In this document: positions 4,268 to 45,648 of the stretch, in pieces
How the letters are laid out: each line of letters starts with the position of its first letter
How positions within the stretch are numbered: position 1 is the stretch's first letter
Source of the DNA: Antrihabitans stalagmiti
GTDB taxonomy: Bacteria > Actinomycetota > Actinomycetes > Mycobacteriales > Mycobacteriaceae
NCBI RefSeq assembly: GCF_016482825.1
Contig: NZ_JAEMNV010000015.1
Location: 1 to 45,648 of the forward strand
Direction of reading: 5' to 3'
Length of the DNA stretch: 45,648 nucleotides
Translations under genes and position numbers: made by a program
The notes under the pieces: generated by a model
What the model saw: the letters and a program-made list of their open reading frames with translations, nothing else
Told to the model about the DNA's origin: nothing
Databases searched by the model: none

Positions 4268-6043
4268 GTGCTAGCGGAAATTCGGATCGATGGACTCGGC
4301 GTCATCTCGAAGGCGAGTGCTCAATTCCACGAGGGGTTGACGGTTCTCACCGGCGAGACAGGCGCAGGTAAGACGATGGTCGTCACGAGTCTGCACCTGT
4401 TGAGCGGCGCCCGCGCCGACCCGGGTCGAGTGCGACTCGGTGCGACGCGTGCGGTTGTGGAGGGACGCTTCACGATCGACGACGTGCACGAGGCCGCACA
4501 GACGGAGGTCGCTCGTGTGCTCGAAGCGACGGGCGGCGAGGCCGACGAAGACGGCAGCATCATCGCGTTACGAACGGTCGGCAGCGACGGCAGGTCGCGC
4601 GCGCATCTCGGCGGTCGCAGCGTTCCGGCAGGCGTGCTTTCGGAGTTCACAAGTCCGCTGCTGACCGTGCACGGCCAGAACGATCAGCTCCGACTGCTGA
4701 AGCCGGAGCAGCAGCGAAACGCTCTCGACCGGTTCGCTGCCGATTCGGTCGGTCCACTGGTGACCAAATATGTGGCGCTGCGTCGGAAGTGGCTCGATGC
4801 CCGGACCCAGTTGCTCGAGCGAACTCAGAAAAGCCGCGAACTCGCGCAGGAAGCTGACAGGCTCCAATTCGCATTGACCGAGATCGACAACGTTGCTGCG
4901 CAACCCGGCGAAGACGTGACGATCGTCGGCGAGGTGCGCAGGCTCAGCGAATTGGATTCGCTGCGTGAGGCGGCAACGGGTGCGCAGGGCGCTCTGGTTG
5001 GTGCGGATGCGGATTTCGGTCCGTCCTCCGACGCCGACGGTGCTCTCGACCTTCTCGGTTCGGCACGGTCGAAGGTGGAGAGCATCGAGGATCCGGCGTT
5101 GCGGGCGTTGGGGCCGCGCTTGGACGAGGCGATCGCGATCGTCAGCGATCTCTCTGCGGAATTGACCTCGTACCTGGCGGATCTGCCGTCGGACCCGAAC
5201 GCCCTCGACACGTTGCTGACACGTCAAGCAGAGCTGAAGCAGTTGACGCGAAAGTACGCAGCCGACGTCGACGGCGTGCTCGCGTGGGCGGATGACGCCC
5301 GCGAGCGGTTGACCAAGATCGACGTCTCCGCCGAAGCGCTCGCAGATCTCGCGACGAAAGTGGACGAGAACGCAGCAGCGCTTTCGGTTGCAGCGACGAA
5401 GCTGACCGCCGCACGCGTCAAGGCCGCAGCGAAGTTGTCGAAGGCGGTCAGCACCGAGCTCGGCGGCCTGGCCATGGGCAAAGCCCGCCTCGAGGTCGAG
5501 GTCCGCGAACTGCCTGCGGGACCACAGGATTCGGCACCCCTGGTCATCGACGGCCGCGACGTGCATGCCGGTTCCGCGGGTGTCGACGAGGTCGAGTTCA
5601 GGTTGTCTGCTCATTCCGGAGCGCAATCGCTCCCGATCAGCAAAAGCGCATCGGGCGGTGAGTTGTCGCGCGTCATGTTGGCGCTGGAGGTTGTGCTCGC
5701 GGGTTCGGACCGTGGGGCGACGATGGTGTTCGACGAGGTCGATGCCGGCGTCGGTGGCCGAGCAGCGGTCGAGATCGGTCGCAGGCTCGCGCGTCTGGCG
5801 CGCACCCACCAGGTGATCGTCGTGACGCACCTACCGCAGGTGGCTGCATTCGCCGACACGCACCTTGTGGTCGACAAGTCCGACAACGCCAAAGGGGTTG
5901 TCAACAGCGGTGTGAAAGCGCTGACCGACGAAGAGCGGGTAAAAGAGCTGGCACGGATGCTGGCCGGCCTCGATGACACCGAGACCGGCCGCGCCCACGC
6001 CGAGGAACTGCTGGCTACGGCGAACGCCGAGCGTTGTGCCTGA
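4268..6043 (+). CDS. recN: DNA repair protein RecN
   Basis: RecN is an SMC-like ATPase that acts early in recombinational repair of double-strand breaks. The 591 residues show the expected layout: Walker A GETGAGKT at 29-36, a long central coiled coil (roughly 160-370, rich in Glu, Arg, Ala and Leu), the ABC signature SGGELSR and Walker B MVFDEVDAGVGG, then VIVVTHLPQVAAFAD with the switch His. The GTG start at 4268 follows a GGAAGGA ribosome site. No actinobacterial SOS box was noticed directly upstream, which fits its place inside an operon. It converges with the SRPBCC gene, 13 bp away. Confidence 0.97.
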   Translation: MLAEIRIDGLGVISKASAQFHEGLTVLTGETGAGKTMVVTSLHLLSGARADPGRVRLGATRAVVEGRFTIDDVHEAAQTEVARVLEATGGEADEDGSIIALRTVGSDGRSRAHLGGRSVPAGVLSEFTSPLLTVHGQNDQLRLLKPEQQRNALDRFAADSVGPLVTKYVALRRKWLDARTQLLERTQKSRELAQEADRLQFALTEIDNVAAQPGEDVTIVGEVRRLSELDSLREAATGAQGALVGADADFGPSSDADGALDLLGSARSKVESIEDPALRALGPRLDEAIAIVSDLSAELTSYLADLPSDPNALDTLLTRQAELKQLTRKYAADVDGVLAWADDARERLTKIDVSAEALADLATKVDENAAALSVAATKLTAARVKAAAKLSKAVSTELGGLAMGKARLEVEVRELPAGPQDSAPLVIDGRDVHAGSAGVDEVEFRLSAHSGAQSLPISKSASGGELSRVMLALEVVLAGSDRGATMVFDEVDAGVGGRAAVEIGRRLARLARTHQVIVVTHLPQVAAFADTHLVVDKSDNAKGVVNSGVKALTDEERVKELARMLAGLDDTETGRAHAEELLATANAERCA

Positions 6044-6056
6044 ACAGCTGGCCTGA

Positions 6057-6485
6057 TCAGGCCCGCTTCGCTGCTTCCTTGCGTGCACCGGAGACGAATG
6101 CACCGATGAGCGCCTTCAGGCCGAGCGAGAGCACCTTGCTTGGAACGGGCAGCTTGGGCTCGGATTCCATCGTGTAGACGACGCGGGTGCCGTTGGCGGC
6201 ATCGGTGAACGCGATCGTTCCGACGTGGCGCTTGACCGGTGCGCCTGCCACGATCTTGTAGACGATCCGCTCACCGGGGACCAGATCGATGATCTGCTCC
6301 GATACGCCGACCGGGCCGAGGCCGAGGAAGTGCACAGCGCCGACGCCCTGGCGTTCGGTGGTGCCTGCGGACTTGAGCCGGGTCGAGATCGGCAGGAAGT
6401 CGCCGTTGTTCTCACGGTCGGCGAAGATGCTGTAAACGACGTCACGTGGTGCTTCGATCACGGTGTCGACGGTGTAGCTGGCCAT
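6057..6485 (-). CDS. SRPBCC (START/polyketide-cyclase-like) family protein
   Basis: This 142-residue single-domain protein has the helix-grip fold pattern. It opens with a strand and VIEAPRDVVYSIFADREN, typical of polyketide cyclase/dehydrase and ribosome-associated toxin RatA-like SRPBCC proteins. Later it has VGVSEQIIDLVPGERIVYKI and a long C-terminal helix ending KEAAKRA. Such proteins bind hydrophobic ligands; the ligand here cannot be told. The ATG start has an AAAGGA ribosome site. It is the only gene on the minus strand inside the syntenic core, between recN and steA, where M. tuberculosis has no gene in this orientation as far as I recall, so it looks like a lineage-specific insertion. 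Confidence 0.88.
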   Translation of the reverse strand: MASYTVDTVIEAPRDVVYSIFADRENNGDFLPISTRLKSAGTTERQGVGAVHFLGLGPVGVSEQIIDLVPGERIVYKIVAGAPVKRHVGTIAFTDAANGTRVVYTMESEPKLPVPSKVLSLGLKALIGAFVSGARKEAAKRA

Positions 6486-35327: not shown

Positions 35328-35441
35328 CGATTTGCCTCCTTCCGCCTCTACTGTGCGCCCGAAACGGTGTCGGAGCCAATACACAATCTGCTTCTTATTC
35401 TTACTGTTTCGGTATAAACGCTGTTCAACGCTTTGGCGAAC

Positions 35442-35462
35442 GGTGTTCCACATTGGAACACC
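35442..35462. promoter_or_regulatory. Perfect palindrome, likely operator of the AcoR-like regulator
   Basis: GGTGTTCCA (35442-35450) and TGGAACACC (35454-35462) form a perfect 9-bp inverted repeat with a 3-base spacer CAT. It lies 82 bases before the monooxygenase start in the 216-bp divergent gap. A looser GTTC-N11-GAAC pair lies just to its left. The dyad form TGTTCC-N-GGAACA suits a Fis-type dimer. The rest of the gap is AT-rich toward the regulator gene. Confidence 0.7.
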
Positions 35463-35543
35463 CGTCATGCAGTGATCGCTCCCACCATGGTGTCAGACAG
35501 TGAACTACCTCACACAGGCTGCAAGGCCGAAGGAGCAAACGCC

Positions 35544-37169
35544 ATGGATGCACAGGTCCACGAACTCGACGCATTGGTCGTCGGAGCCGGCTTCGGCGGC
35601 ATCTACATGCTGCACAAACTGCGCAACGAGCAAGGACTCGATGCCGTTGCAATAGACAAAGCAGGCGGAGTCGGCGGAACTTGGTACTGGAACAAATACC
35701 CGGGTGCGCTCTCGGACTCCGAGAGTTTCGTCTACCAGTACTCGTTCGACCGCGACCTGTACACGGATACGCCGTGGAAGACGAAGTTCGTTCGGCAACC
35801 CGAGATCCTGGAATACCTCAACGGCGTGGTCGACCGCTACGAGCTTCGCGACCACATCCAGCTCGAGACGGGCATGGTGTCGGCGGAGTTCGATGAATCC
35901 GCGGGTATGTGGACTGTGCGTACCGACCGCGACGTGACCTACCGCAGCCGTTTTCTCGTGACCGGACTCGGTCTGCTTTCGGCGACCAACCTGCCGAAGT
36001 TTCCGGGTATGGAGTCTTTCGAGGGCAGCCTCGTACATACCGGAGCATGGCCGGAGGATCTGGACGTCACCGGCAAGCGCATCGGTGTGATCGGCAATGG
36101 ATCGACCGGCAACCAGGTGATCACCGCGACAGCGCCGATTGTCGGTCATTTGACCTCGTTCCAACGCACCGCGCAGTACAGCGTCCCCGCAGGGAACCGA
36201 GTGCTGACGGAGCAGGAGCAGCAGGCGATCAAAGACAATTTCGAAGCCAACTGGGATCAGGTCCGCAACTCGGGGCTCGCGATGGGGTTCGTCGAGAGCA
36301 CCCTCGAAATGGGGACAGTCTCCGACGCCGAGCGGGAGCGGATATTCGAGGAGGCCTGGAACGAAGGCGGTGGTTTCTGCTTTATGTTCAAGACGTTCGG
36401 CGACATCGCGACCAGCGAAGAAGCGAACGAAGAAGCCGCAAAATTCATCCGAAACAAAATTGCGCAGATCGTCACGGACCCGGAAACGGCACGCAAGCTC
36501 ACTCCGACCGACCTCTACGCGCGCCGCCCGCTGTGCGACTCCGGCTACTACGAAACCTTCAATCGGCCCAACGTGTCGTTGGTGAACGTCAAGGAAAACC
36601 CCATCACGAAGGTCGTCGACAAGGGCATCGTCACTGCCGACGGAACCCTGCACGAACTCGATGTTTTGATCTGCGCCACCGGTTTCGACGCTGTCGACGG
36701 CAACTACGTGCGCACCGACATTCGCGGCCGGAACGGGCAAACGCTGAAAGAGCATTGGAGTGACGGACCGACGAGCTACCTCGGCGTCGCCACCAGCGGC
36801 TTCCCGAACATGTTTATGATCCTCGGTCCGAACGGCCCGTTCACGAACCTCCCACCGTCGATCGAAACTCAGGTCGAGTGGATCAGCGACGCCATCGCCC
36901 ACGTGCTGGCCGACGGCAAGGAGTGGATCGACGTCAAACCCGACGTCGAACACGAGTGGACCGAGACCTGCATCGACATCGCAAATCAGACTCTGTTTCC
37001 CAAGTCGCCCTCGTCGTGGATCTTCGGTGCCAACATCCCAGGCAAGAAGCGGGCGGTCATGTTCTACCTGGGCGGTTTGAAGGAATACCGAACCATCGGC
37101 GGAGCAGAAGCGGCAGCGGGATACCAAAGCTTCGCGACCAAAGCCGATGCACTCACGCCGGTCTCCTGA
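35544..37169 (+). CDS. Type I Baeyer-Villiger monooxygenase, cyclohexanone monooxygenase-like
   Basis: This FAD- and NADPH-dependent enzyme inserts oxygen next to a ketone, giving an ester or lactone. The 541 residues contain FAD motif GAGFGG (14-19), GGTWYWNKYPGALSD, the type I fingerprint FEGSLVHTGAWP (159-170), NADPH motif GNGSTG (184-189) and ATGFDAVDGNY. From memory it follows the rhodococcal cyclohexanone monooxygenase along its length, including GPNGPFTNLPPSIETQVEW. ATG 35544 has AAGGAG at 35530-35535. It leads a five-gene operon with aldehyde dehydrogenase and diol/ketone dehydrogenases. The true substrate could be a cyclic ketone or a small ketone such as acetoin. Confidence 0.95.
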   Translation: MDAQVHELDALVVGAGFGGIYMLHKLRNEQGLDAVAIDKAGGVGGTWYWNKYPGALSDSESFVYQYSFDRDLYTDTPWKTKFVRQPEILEYLNGVVDRYELRDHIQLETGMVSAEFDESAGMWTVRTDRDVTYRSRFLVTGLGLLSATNLPKFPGMESFEGSLVHTGAWPEDLDVTGKRIGVIGNGSTGNQVITATAPIVGHLTSFQRTAQYSVPAGNRVLTEQEQQAIKDNFEANWDQVRNSGLAMGFVESTLEMGTVSDAERERIFEEAWNEGGGFCFMFKTFGDIATSEEANEEAAKFIRNKIAQIVTDPETARKLTPTDLYARRPLCDSGYYETFNRPNVSLVNVKENPITKVVDKGIVTADGTLHELDVLICATGFDAVDGNYVRTDIRGRNGQTLKEHWSDGPTSYLGVATSGFPNMFMILGPNGPFTNLPPSIETQVEWISDAIAHVLADGKEWIDVKPDVEHEWTETCIDIANQTLFPKSPSSWIFGANIPGKKRAVMFYLGGLKEYRTIGGAEAAAGYQSFATKADALTPVS

Positions 37170-41544: not shown

Positions 41545-41593
41545 TCAGGCGGAATGGTCGTTGCCCATGGCCCTGCCGGCGTAAAGGACGGTC

Positions 41594-41812
41594 CTATCTG
41601 TCGGTCGCGTTCGGGTTCGGTGTACGAAACAGGGAGTCGTGATCTCGCTCCTGGTCCATCCTCTTCTGGAACTCGTCCTGTTGCGCTTTCAGTTCGGCGT
41701 CGGTGGCATCCGGGGGAAGAATGGTGCCGGGTGCGCCGAGGCCAGGATCGGCGGCGTCTATCTCGTCGGTGCGTGAGTGCTTGACAGGGAGGAACGGTTC
41801 GCTCGAGTTCAT
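41594..41812 (-). CDS. Small charged hypothetical protein
   Basis: This 72-residue hydrophilic protein has no membrane segment. Residues 1-38 are Pro/Asp-rich (DAADPGLGAPGTILPPDATD). Residues 39-62 form a likely helix (AELKAQQDEFQKRMDQERDH). The end is FRTPNPNATDR. Amino acid choice looks natural rather than like a shadow frame, and no other frame across it is convincing. No ribosome site is obvious before the ATG. It is unrecognised and is encoded opposite to its neighbours. Confidence 0.5.
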   Translation of the reverse strand: MNSSEPFLPVKHSRTDEIDAADPGLGAPGTILPPDATDAELKAQQDEFQKRMDQERDHDSLFRTPNPNATDR

Positions 41813-42203
41813 GTCTGTGCGGTGCCCGCTTTTCGAGTTTTCTAATCATCCGTTGTGACGACGCAGTTATGAAAACATGCGTGCGACGTATCGACTTTTC
41901 CGAGTATTTCACCGTGGCCGGTGGTCGGTTGTGGCAACCTCGGCGGCCGGTGACATCCCGTGCATCGATTGCGCCTCGATTGTGTTGCGCCGGAACCGGA
42001 ATCGTGCAGGATGCCCCTTGTCTCGAAACAAAACCTACCGCCCGGTACTGAGTGCTTGCGCCAGTGACCGGTACGGAAAATAAACCTATTTACCTGTCTT
42101 TCAACGGGTTTCAATTGTCTATCAATTGCGTTAACTTCAGGCGTTCGCGCACGTGAACTAAGACGGCGTGCTTATATCGGTCCATCAGGTCGGGTGGTCA
42201 AAC
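41813..42203. other. Non-coding gap before the NRPS with an AT-rich promoter-like stretch
   Basis: No convincing gene is seen in these 390 bases. From about 42075 to 42140 the DNA becomes distinctly AT-rich compared with the surroundings. It contains two CAATTG boxes (42112-42117, 42123-42128) spaced 11 bp centre to centre, which together form a dyad, and TTAACT just after them. This is the best candidate for the promoter and regulator site of the NRPS transcript. I looked for an IdeR/DtxR iron box; only unpaired ACCT half-sites (42085-42095) are present, not a full site. Confidence 0.45.
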
Positions 42204-42239
42204 GATGAACTAGAACCGGTTCATCTCCTTCACGGAGGT
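42204..42239 (+). promoter_or_regulatory. Two overlapping hairpins around the leader ORF ribosome site
   Basis: GATGAAC (42204-42210) can pair with GTTCATC (42219-42225), and this loop includes the palindrome GAACCGGTTC (42213-42222). ATCTCC (42223-42228) can instead pair with GGAGGT (42234-42239), burying the ribosome site of the leader ORF. The two stems share bases 42223-42225, so they exclude each other. This is the form of a switch, or the first dyad may be a protein operator. Confidence 0.45.
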
Positions 42240-42244
42240 TCCTG

Positions 42245-42355
42245 ATGACGCTCTGCCCGCCCGATTACGCAGGCCCTTGTGACCTTTCGCGGGGTAACCG
42301 ATTCAAGCTGAAAACGCAGCCGCCACGAGTCGGAGCGATCTGCAACAAACGATGA
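42245..42355 (+). CDS. 36-residue leader ORF coupled to the NRPS
   Basis: ATG 42245 follows GGAGGT (42234-42239) at five bases, the strongest ribosome site in this part of the window. The ORF runs 36 codons (starting [12 protein letters not shown], ending ICNKR) and stops with TGA at 42353-42355, overlapping the NRPS ATG at 42352 by the ATGA pattern. The NRPS start itself has no Shine-Dalgarno sequence. The peptide has three Cys, several Pro, and Lys/Arg in its second half, with no known family. It is likely a leader that delivers ribosomes to the NRPS start. It is not MbtH, which is about 70 residues with conserved Trp. Confidence 0.6.
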
Positions 42356-45300
42356 GTGCTGCGGAGTATCCGGCATGGGAACATCGGGCTCTCCCTGAGA
42401 ACCTGTTGCCGGGCAAACCATTTCCGTTGTCCGCTGCACAGCACGGGATCTGGCTGGCATACAAGCTCGACCCGGAGATCTCGCTCTCCGTTGCCCAATG
42501 TGTCGAAGTGTGTGGCGATCTCGATGTCGCCCTGCTCAATTGGGCCTATGCCACGGCGGGGCGCGAGTTCGAGGCATTCGCCGTCCGAATAATCGACGTC
42601 GGCGGTCGCCCACACCAGATCGTCGACCACTCACTCGACGTGTCGGTGGAGCTGATCGACGTGCGGAGCTGTACAGACCCCGTGGCTGCCGCACACGACT
42701 GGATGGAACAGGACTACACGGCGCCGCTCGACGTGGTCGGTGATCGGCTGATTCGGTCGGCAGCGCTCTGGACGGGAAATCAGCACTACCTCTGGTACTT
42801 CCGTGTCCACCACATTGTCCTGGACGGCTTCGGCGCGATGACGATCTTCGATCGAGTCGCCGAGCTCTACACAGCAGCGGTCCACGAGCGCGAACCCGGA
42901 CCGGCGGAGGCGACCCCGCTACGCGAACTGGTTGCGATCGACCGGCGCTATCGCACGTCGGCGTCGTTCGACGAAGACCGGGCCTACTGGGTGGAGCAGT
43001 TGAGTGATGTCCGTGGGGTCGCCACGTTGGCTACCACCGACGCGCCCGCCGCCACAGGCAACCGGCGCGTGGCCGGCCCGCTGTCCGAACAGGCGACCGC
43101 CATTCTGTTGGGTGCCGAGCGGCCTGCAGTGTCGGCGGCCACCGTCATGGCTGCCTTTGCGTGTTATCTGTCGCGAGCAACCGGCCGCGACGAGGTAGTG
43201 CTCAACGTGCCGATGTCGGCGCGCGTCACCCCAGAGGAGCGGCGTGCCGGCGGCATGATGGCCGAGGTCGTACCGCTCCGACTTCGGGTCGAGCCCGACG
43301 ACTCTGTCGAAAAGTTGGTTCGACGGGTACAACTCGCAGTGAAGGGCGTACTGCCACATCAGCGTTTCGGTATCGCCGACCTACGCCACGAGGTCGGCGA
43401 ACCGGGTACCCAGCGTTTCGGGGGACCGGTCGTGAACGTGATGCTCTACTTCCATTCGTTGCAGCTAGGATCGACGAGCTGCGAAAACCGCATTCTCACT
43501 TACGGTCCCGAGCGAGACCTGTCGGTCAATGTGTATCCCGTCGGCAATCCCGCCCGCGTATTCGTCGACCTTCGTGCCAATCCCGACCGGTACGACGAGG
43601 CACAACTCGGTGCCCACCAGGAGACTTTCTCGGCTCTGCTCGAGGAACTGCTGCAAGCCGATTCGGCCACGTTGCTCTCTGCGGTGCACACCGAGTCGGC
43701 GCGCGCGGGTGAAGAATTGCGGCGTACTGAAGAGCAGCTCGAGTATTGGCGTACAACGTTGTCCGGTGCTCCCGAGGTGCTGGCGTTGCCGTTGGATCGG
43801 CCGCGGAACACGGTGCGGTCCACGCGCGGGGGCCGGGTGAACTTCGAGATCGGACCGTCGCTACATCGACGTCTTGTCAGCCTCGGGGACGCTCATCGCG
43901 CGAGCCTGTTCATGACGATGCATGCCTCGTTGGCGGTACTGCTCACGAGGTTGTCGGGGCAGGACGACGTCGTCATCGGAACGACGGTTGGACCTCCCGC
44001 CGTCGTGACGGGGAGCAACGTGGTCGCCTTGCGGACACCGGTCGAGTTGGGGATGGCGTTCGCAGACTTGCTCGATCGCGTACGCACAGTGGATCTGGAT
44101 GCGTTCGAGCGTGCAGACGTGCCGTTCGATCGTGTGGTCGACGAGTTGGTTCGTGTGCGATCGTCGGCGCACACGTCGCTGCTTCAGGTTGTCCTCGAGC
44201 AAATGGAGTCGCAGCGGTCACTCGGGCTCGAGCCGGTCGACGTCAGCTTCGATCTGCACACGAGGATGGCCGAACGATTCGACCCACAGGGGCGGCCCGC
44301 CGGGATATCGGTGGAATTTACCTATGCCACTGACATATTCGACAAGGCGACCGTACGGGGATTCGCCGATCGGTTCGCGCGGACGCTGGCGGCGGTGGCC
44401 GCCGACCCCGAAACGAGGGTGGGTGACGTTCAACTACTCAGTTCCGTCGAACGTCGCACGATCGAACGCTGGAACAAGTCGGGCGTCGACACCGGTGCGG
44501 CAACGATCACGAGCATGCTCGCCAACCGCGCCGCGCTCGCTCCGAACGCTCCGGCCGTGCACGACGCCGGGTCGACGCTCGCCTACGGGCAGTTGGTCGC
44601 TCGCGCGAATCAACTTGCCCGCCATATCATTGCGCAGGGTTGCTGCCCCGACACGCTCGTCGCGGTCGTATTGCCGCGTACCTCCGAGTTGGTCGTCACG
44701 CTCACAGCAGTGCTCACATCAGGCGCCGGGTACTTGCCGATCGATGTCACGCACCCGACGGCACGCATCCGTGCCATCCTCGACGACGCACACCCGCTGA
44801 TCGTCGTTACTACGGCACAGTTCTGCGACGAGCACGACCTCGGTGCCGATCGGCTTGTGCTGCTGGACGATCCGGATACGGTGGCGACCATTACCGGCCT
44901 GTCGACGGAACCGGTGAGCGACACAGAGCGGCCGGCACCGTTGCGAGCCGACAACACGGCCTATCTCATCTACACCTCCGGATCGACGGGAGTGCCGAAG
45001 GGCGTTCTCGTCTCGCATCGCAGCGTCGTCAATCTGTTGGCCAACACATTCGTCGAATTCGGCTTCGACGAGTCGGATGTGTGGACGATGTTCCACTCGC
45101 CCGCATTCGATTTCTCCGTGTGGGAGGTGTGGGGTGCACTGCTCTCCGGCGGCAGCGTTGTCGTCGTCGATCACTTCACTGCGCGCACACCCGTCCAGTT
45201 CCTGGACCTGTTGCGGCAGCGGCGTGTCACCGTGCTCAGCCAGACCCCGACGGCGTTCTACCAACTCTCGAACACAGAACTGTCCCGCCCCGCGGGCGCA

Positions 45301-45648
45301 TCGCCACTGTCGTTGCGCTACATCGTCTTCGGCGGGGAGGCGCTGAACCCAGCACTCCTGACGAACTGGTGGGAGCGGCACGGTGACAGGTCGCCCGTAC
45401 TGGTGAACATGTACGGCATCACCGAAATCTGCGTGCACGCAACGATGCTCCGGATGACAAGCGACACCGCTGGGAGCGCGTCCGCGAGTCCCGTCGGACG
45501 AGCGATCCCGAGTCTGCAGTTGCACGTGTTGGATTCGCGGTTGCGGGTGGTGCCTGTGGGTGTGGTCGGTGAGTTGTATGTGTCGGGTCCTGGTGTGGCG
45601 CGGGGGTATTGGGGTCGGTCGGGGTTGACGGCGTCGCGGTTTGTTGCG
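42352..45648 (+). CDS. Non-ribosomal peptide synthetase, N-terminal part (C, half-C, A), runs off the window
   Basis: The frame is open for 1099 codons to the last base. Residues 20-440 form a condensation domain with [15 protein letters not shown] and the active motif HHIVLDG (H153-G159). Residues 460-690 look like only the second half of another condensation domain ([20 protein letters not shown] to FDRVVDEL); it lacks an HHxxxDG half. An adenylation domain starts near 724 with core A3 [11 protein letters not shown] (874), A4 [10 protein letters not shown] and A5 NMYGITE (about 1019). Hand alignment to GrsA gives the pocket D-F-W-S-V-G-M-V-H, close to threonine codes. No carrier domain is reached before the end. 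The start is set by ATGA overlap with the leader ORF. The product is unknown, perhaps a siderophore or lipopeptide. Confidence 0.93.

Follow-up and report, generated by a model that had tools for sequence, protein, structure and literature searches.

The window analysed here, a stretch of 45,648 nt of Antrihabitans stalagmiti DNA, closes with the beginning of an NRPS gene that is preceded by a short leader ORF. The following features are located in this region:

42352-45648, + strand: NRPS start, with a condensation and then an adenylation domain (Pfam PF00668, PF00501), running past the window end
42245-42355, + strand: leader ORF (uORF) of 36 codons (36 aa), its TGA (42353-42355) overlapping the NRPS ATG at 42352 (ATGA, 42352-42355)
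42234-42238, + strand: Shine-Dalgarno (SD) sequence GGAGG of the leader ORF, 6 nt to the leader ATG (same GGAGG in Williamsia faeni, spacing 7 nt)
42332-42340, + strand: SD-like stretch GGAGCGATC in the distal part of the leader, 20 nt upstream of the NRPS ATG, a candidate reinitiation aid
42204-42225, + strand: hairpin 1, 8 pairs, also a DNA palindrome (-8.1 kcal/mol alone)
42223-42239, + strand: hairpin 2, 6 pairs, which would bury the leader SD (-5.9 kcal/mol alone)
42164-42179, + strand: conserved block CGGCGTGCTTATATCG, also written CGGCGTG-TTATATCG, of whose 16 bases W. faeni shares 15

The contig appears to end within the NRPS gene, since the open frame of the latter is as long as the window permits. 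Pfam assigns two condensation stretches to 42352-45648, the second of which, by eye, resembles a partial domain before the adenylation domain. The top NCBIfam match of the incomplete NRPS protein is myxochelin synthetase MxcG, far under the cut-off. The gene immediately upstream has the same orientation and encodes a luciferase-like monooxygenase of 352 aa. Between this gene and the NRPS, a 72-aa ORF without family match is located on the minus strand (41594-41812); a homolog (59% identical) is present in one genome of the same genus (2 of 41 genomes match, that of the window included), which displays no clear collinearity to the window over a 12-kb stretch.

Leader ORF and ribosome sites

The earlier note on this DNA had described a 36-codon ORF, led by a strong ribosome site and ending as ATGA over the NRPS start; the ORF, its GGAGG and the overlap were confirmed. 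The architecture of the leader ORF exceeds chance expectation: when the 300 upstream nt were dinucleotide-shuffled 20,000 times, SD-preceded ORFs with 20 or more codons and an ATGA end arose in 0.19% (window) and 0.57% (W. faeni region) of cases with GGAGG as SD, and in 2.1% (window) and 4.3% (W. faeni) when three 4-base SD matches were accepted besides GGAGG. The GC content at codon positions 1, 2 and 3 of the window leader (0.60, 0.57 and 0.65) is weakly gene-like, and the leader peptide has no Pfam or NCBIfam match. A peptide search in 61 genomes gave matches at E<=1 in 25 of them, with one match in the window's own genome; the best match outside the window (E = 0.013) sits within a 329-codon frame, and homology was not adopted. 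A further tiny ORF, whose TGA overlaps the leader ATG (TGATG), is found in the window (42168-42245) as well as in W. faeni (L057:2826-2894), with differing starts and unrelated-looking peptides in the two species.

The NRPS frame contains no ATG, GTG or TTG from the preceding stop to the start, in the window and in W. faeni, and no SD is present at the usual spacing for the NRPS start. The claim that the leader SD is the only strong ribosome site before the NRPS is nevertheless doubtful on account of the distal stretch. Duplex energies, computed with what we take to be the sequence of the 16S tail, are -10.5 kcal/mol for GGAGCGATC and -18.6 kcal/mol for GGGGTGATC, which occupies the corresponding position in W. 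faeni (L057:2981-2989), compared to -10.7 (window) and -10.9 kcal/mol (W. faeni) for the leader SD. Among 3140 23-mers of NRPS coding sequence, 5.3% are as strong as the distal stretch of the window, which is not statistically strong, and none (0/3140) is as strong as that of W. faeni. On the same measure, the leader's own SD is reached by 4.5% (window) and 7.1% (W. faeni) of coding 23-mers; thus, energy alone does not single out the leader SD, but its spacing does. The GGAG core of the distal stretch is located 16 nt from the NRPS ATG, and an SD-to-ATG distance of 16 nt is too far for ordinary initiation. From its position inside the leader, the distal stretch could hold a terminating ribosome.

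The ortholog in Williamsia faeni

The sole ortholog found is encoded on contig QJJF01000019.1 of W. faeni DSM 45372 (75% identity over the first 450 aa of the NRPS), a record bearing the title UNVERIFIED_CONTAM; all ortholog comparison thus rests on two sequences, window and W. faeni. According to the genus grouping of the genome set, W. faeni belongs to a genus distinct from that of the window. No further ortholog was detected in 4 genomes of the window's genus and 9 of W. faeni's genus. W. faeni was also the only ortholog among 401 family genomes, the other matches listed being 42-49% identical; 30 loci were taken for inspection. Searches of 59, 28 and 37 genomes of three further genera (nearly all within the 401-genome set) yielded no further ortholog, those of the 59- and 37-genome genera giving zero matches and hence lacking a positive control. 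A search of 397 genomes of the order yielded no ortholog, in a sample that gave no W. faeni match and is therefore no proof of absence. A contig collection searched by exact peptide patterns returned only W. faeni, and all matches of a plasmid search were below 60% identity.

Fifty-seven NRPS loci (L031-L087; L031 is the window, L057 and L059 are the W. faeni locus) were scanned for ORFs of 15-60 codons with a stop overlapping a start and an SD core 4-10 nt from the ORF start. The feature was seen in the window and in W. faeni but at none of the 54 non-orthologous NRPS loci, of which L061 has no start codon within 150 nt and some have an uncertain true NRPS start. A looser scan gave weaker candidates, two of them RTGA-linked:

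L033: 20-aa ORF, RTGA-linked, GGAGG 12 nt away
L046: 48-aa ORF, RTGA-linked, GAGG abutting the start

The core pattern of the leader (<=3 mismatches) has a single match in its own genome and occurs in 2 of the 401 family genomes, that of the window and W. faeni.

As checks in orthologs, the earlier note had named the presence of the ORF with its stop overlap, compensatory stem changes and codon-level constraint. Both ORF and stop overlap are present in W. faeni: the leader MQSRRRYSLFLSDISRSIWIELKSTSARSGVIGARR comprises 36 codons, with CGGAGGTACGCTGATG and ATGA (L057:2894-3004), and has no indel relative to the window. In W. faeni, an ATG further upstream lies in the same open frame and would extend the product to 68 aa (L057:2798-3004); the 36-codon start was chosen because that ATG carries the SD. 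Codon 9 of the W. faeni leader is a TTA leucine codon (L057:2918-2920), and TTA is absent from the window leader.

The genes immediately upstream are different ones, W. faeni having an AraC-type regulator on the opposite strand. Beyond the latter (L096 about 4596-6170) is a distant homolog of the flavin monooxygenase-like gene at 35433-37169 of the window (Pfam PF00743), with about 35-63% identity in same-frame tblastx pieces; this may reflect either chance paralogy or a remnant of shared surroundings.

Local similarity of the two sequences starts at about 42134 and reaches the NRPS start, with a score of 77 (300 shuffles gave at most 40). Taken separately, the leader DNA has a score of 42 (maximum 32 in 1000 shuffles) and the region upstream of the leader one of 39 (maximum 40, n=300); since the latter is within the shuffle range, the similarity there is not secure by itself. 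MAFFT aligned the leader gap-free, while the 101 nt preceding it have three internal gap events, plus a 19-base gap at the left edge of the alignment. The block at 42164-42179 may represent a candidate promoter -10 region; a consensus scan found no + strand sigma-70-like site and thus lends this no support.

Identity of the leader DNA (61/105) is close to that of the third codon positions of the NRPS (0.84, 0.88 and 0.60 for positions 1, 2 and 3), so that most of the leader could drift neutrally, and the open frame survives in 34% of random sets with an equal number of substitutions. Both values would fit a chance ORF without role, the NRPS starting from its own distal SD, which is strong in W. 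faeni, or by SD-free initiation. However, GGAGG, ATG, length and overlap are all kept, such ORFs are rare in the shuffles described above, and the distal SD core is too remote from the NRPS ATG, which together make this explanation unlikely. By rough arithmetic, all eight bases of SD and ATG would be retained with a probability of about 0.017 at an identity of 60%. That GGAGG, ATG, frame, length and overlap are retained together in the two sequences argues for a function.

Predicted structures and the leader peptide

The earlier note had further proposed a regulated switch, in which two mutually exclusive stems would bury or expose the leader SD, thereby gating the NRPS. Both hairpins can be drawn at the proposed places, are predicted to form alone and have 42223-42225 in common, but they are neither beyond chance nor conserved. 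Hairpin 1 dominated in five predicted transcript-segment ensembles (pairing 0.87-1.0), whereas pairing of hairpin 2 was 0.31 in the shortest segment, 0.13 in a second and close to 0.03 in the remaining three. In the MAFFT alignment, only 2 of 8 (hairpin 1) and 2 of 6 (hairpin 2) pairs are able to form in W. faeni; thus, compensatory stem changes are not apparent and neither stem is kept. The fold of the region (z = -0.37 and -0.70) is not beyond chance, and the window contains 340 positions of eight-pair stems (loops 3-10, G-U allowed). The leader SD is predicted to be mostly paired in both species, though via different partners, and 24% (window) and 70% (W. faeni) of 300 shuffled flanks bury it to the same degree or more. 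Rfam gave no match near a family cut-off in the region, the sole match, a fungal snoRNA far below cut-off, being due to chance. A local aligner, which placed more gaps before the leader than MAFFT, matched a TCTCC upstream of the SD between the two species, so that a weak anti-SD may exist. Taken together, hairpin 1 is probably incidental, burial of the SD by hairpin 2 is not supported, and the switch as a whole appears very unlikely.

The palindrome at 42204-42225 was also considered as a repeated operator. No second exact copy is present in its own genome, and GATGAAC-N8-GTTCATC at <=2 mismatches occurs at 70 genome places vs. 6 for a reversed control pattern. The inexact matches were put down to composition and the candidate was dropped.

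Alternatively, the leader may encode a functional small protein forming an operon with the NRPS, as could be suspected from its equal length in both species and a few common residues (e.g., D-[LI]-S-R and L-K). The comparison of the two peptides points the other way: 9 of 35 residues after the start are identical, compared to a mean of 11.1 when the same 44 substitutions are placed at random with the frame kept, and the identity and BLOSUM score were at least as high in 0.91 and 0.95 of the trials, respectively. Codon positions 1, 2 and 3 of the leader are identical at 17/35, 19/35 and 25/35 (ungapped), i.e., third positions are best conserved, and 25 or more third-position matches were reached in 3.6% of shuffles. 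BLASTP of the two leader peptides gave no alignment, and the peptide belongs to no family. A small protein is therefore highly improbable. The leader peptide is under no visible constraint in this comparison, i.e., the codon-level constraint is lacking even though ORF, length, SD and overlap persist. Since the peptide match is below random expectation, translation as such is all that could be conserved.

An attenuation leader, with ribosomes pausing at specific codons as in the leaders of amino-acid operons, is suggested by 3 Cys and two PP pairs in the window leader but is extremely unlikely, since the W. faeni leader has neither Cys nor Pro, terminator-like sites are absent from 41545-42400 (0 found) and, by reading, neither leader contains a repeated codon run. 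A -1 frameshift fusion of leader and NRPS was rejected as well: by eye, no slippery heptamer is present at the junction in either species.

Probable translational coupling and its relation to known systems

The leader is likely to represent a sequence-indifferent, translated uORF which delivers ribosomes to the NRPS by termination-reinitiation. Ribosomes would load at the leader GGAGG and translate the leader, the peptide itself being immaterial, terminate at the TGA within ATGA and reinitiate on the overlapping NRPS ATG; the terminating ribosome would perhaps be held by the distal SD-like stretch in the last leader codons. Transcription and translation of the leader, a dependence of NRPS translation on reinitiation and a contribution of the distal SD are what we infer from the two loci. 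Coupling of the leader to the NRPS, as had been proposed in the earlier note, gains support from the single ortholog found, which shows the same architecture, and the persistence of ORF, length, SD and overlap with an unconstrained peptide fits coupling without a functional peptide. The SD-led leader, the local similarity reaching the NRPS start, with different genes immediately upstream, and the NRPS start with neither an alternative start codon in its frame nor an SD at usual spacing also count in favour of coupling.

Several observations speak against it. Due to the longer W. faeni frame (68 aa), the figure of 36 codons there depends on choosing the SD-led start. The comparison involves two sequences, one from an UNVERIFIED_CONTAM record, with upstream-only similarity within the shuffles and a leader identity close to that of NRPS third positions. 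The 34% survival of the open frame, the common SD energy, the weakly gene-like GC content and the wide translation of short ORFs that have no evident function in Mycobacterium tuberculosis point in the same direction.

Beyond coupling as such, one may tentatively speculate that NRPS translation depends on a uORF with two staged ribosome sites, the proximal SD loading ribosomes and the extended SD in the last codons holding the terminating ribosome for reinitiation, possibly as a control point for a costly enzyme; this more specific version is rather doubtful. If the coupling itself is real, heterologous expression of the NRPS would need the leader ORF and not the gene from its ATG alone, and annotation that skips short ORFs would miss the leader.

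The following comparisons refer to excerpts of the cited papers. Amino-acid attenuators of Streptomyces lividans (PMC8079986) likewise have a short leader ORF before a biosynthetic gene; unlike these, the present leader has no regulatory codon run or terminator-like site and overlaps the gene directly. The MIRU elements of mycobacteria, as described in PMC12548453, also comprise an ORF coupled to the next gene, at -4 spacing. MIRUs are repeated, however, whereas the leader core pattern is found once in its own genome and in 2/401 family genomes. According to PMC9094748, short ORFs are widely translated in M. tuberculosis without evident function, most of the newly found ones having no signs of purifying selection.

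The available parts of work on translation in Streptomyces griseus, S. lividans (PMC8079986) and M. tuberculosis (PMC9094748) mention no NRPS leader of this kind. The claim that such a leader is undescribed is uncontradicted for NRPS genes, since no NRPS/PKS leader of this kind was found in the open-access literature consulted in excerpts (weak evidence of absence), but coupled small ORFs as a class are already described in mycobacteria.

Strict coupling was reported by Huber et al. 2019 (PMC6728339) for 13 of 14 overlapping gene pairs, with a varying contribution of the SD. Their ATGA/TGATG pairs have the same type of overlap as the leader and the NRPS, and an SD inside the upstream gene contributes; these are native gene pairs, tested in Haloferax volcanii and Escherichia coli. 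Brown and Wade 2025 (PMC12548453) proposed that uORFs deliver the ribosome by translational coupling; like these uORFs, the leader would have no task other than driving the gene behind it. The excerpts of that paper present this as a general concept, with no NRPS case noted.

Closest to the present case, short unannotated ORFs whose stop overlaps the downstream start as RTGA were described by Shell et al. 2015 (PMC4633059), who found such coupled small ORFs over-represented in M. tuberculosis (23/220 vs. 32/1000 random sites). The overlap is of this form in the window and in W. faeni, and the size of the leader (36 aa) falls within their range of 5-50 aa, as it does in W. faeni when the SD-led ATG is taken as the start (36 aa; 68 aa if counted from the first ATG). 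In some of their cases, only placement and coupled architecture are kept and the peptide sequence is not, as observed here for two sequences, and an SD inside the upstream ORF may likewise assist. The set counted by Shell et al. consists of small ORFs starting on leaderless transcripts, whereas a leadered start, with probably about 60 untranslated nt before the leader ORF, is suggested in the present case by an SD at its usual distance. Unlike in that set, as far as excerpted, the downstream gene is an NRPS. The leader would thereby add a biosynthetic megagene to the class of coupled uORFs, an extension of a described class rather than a new one.
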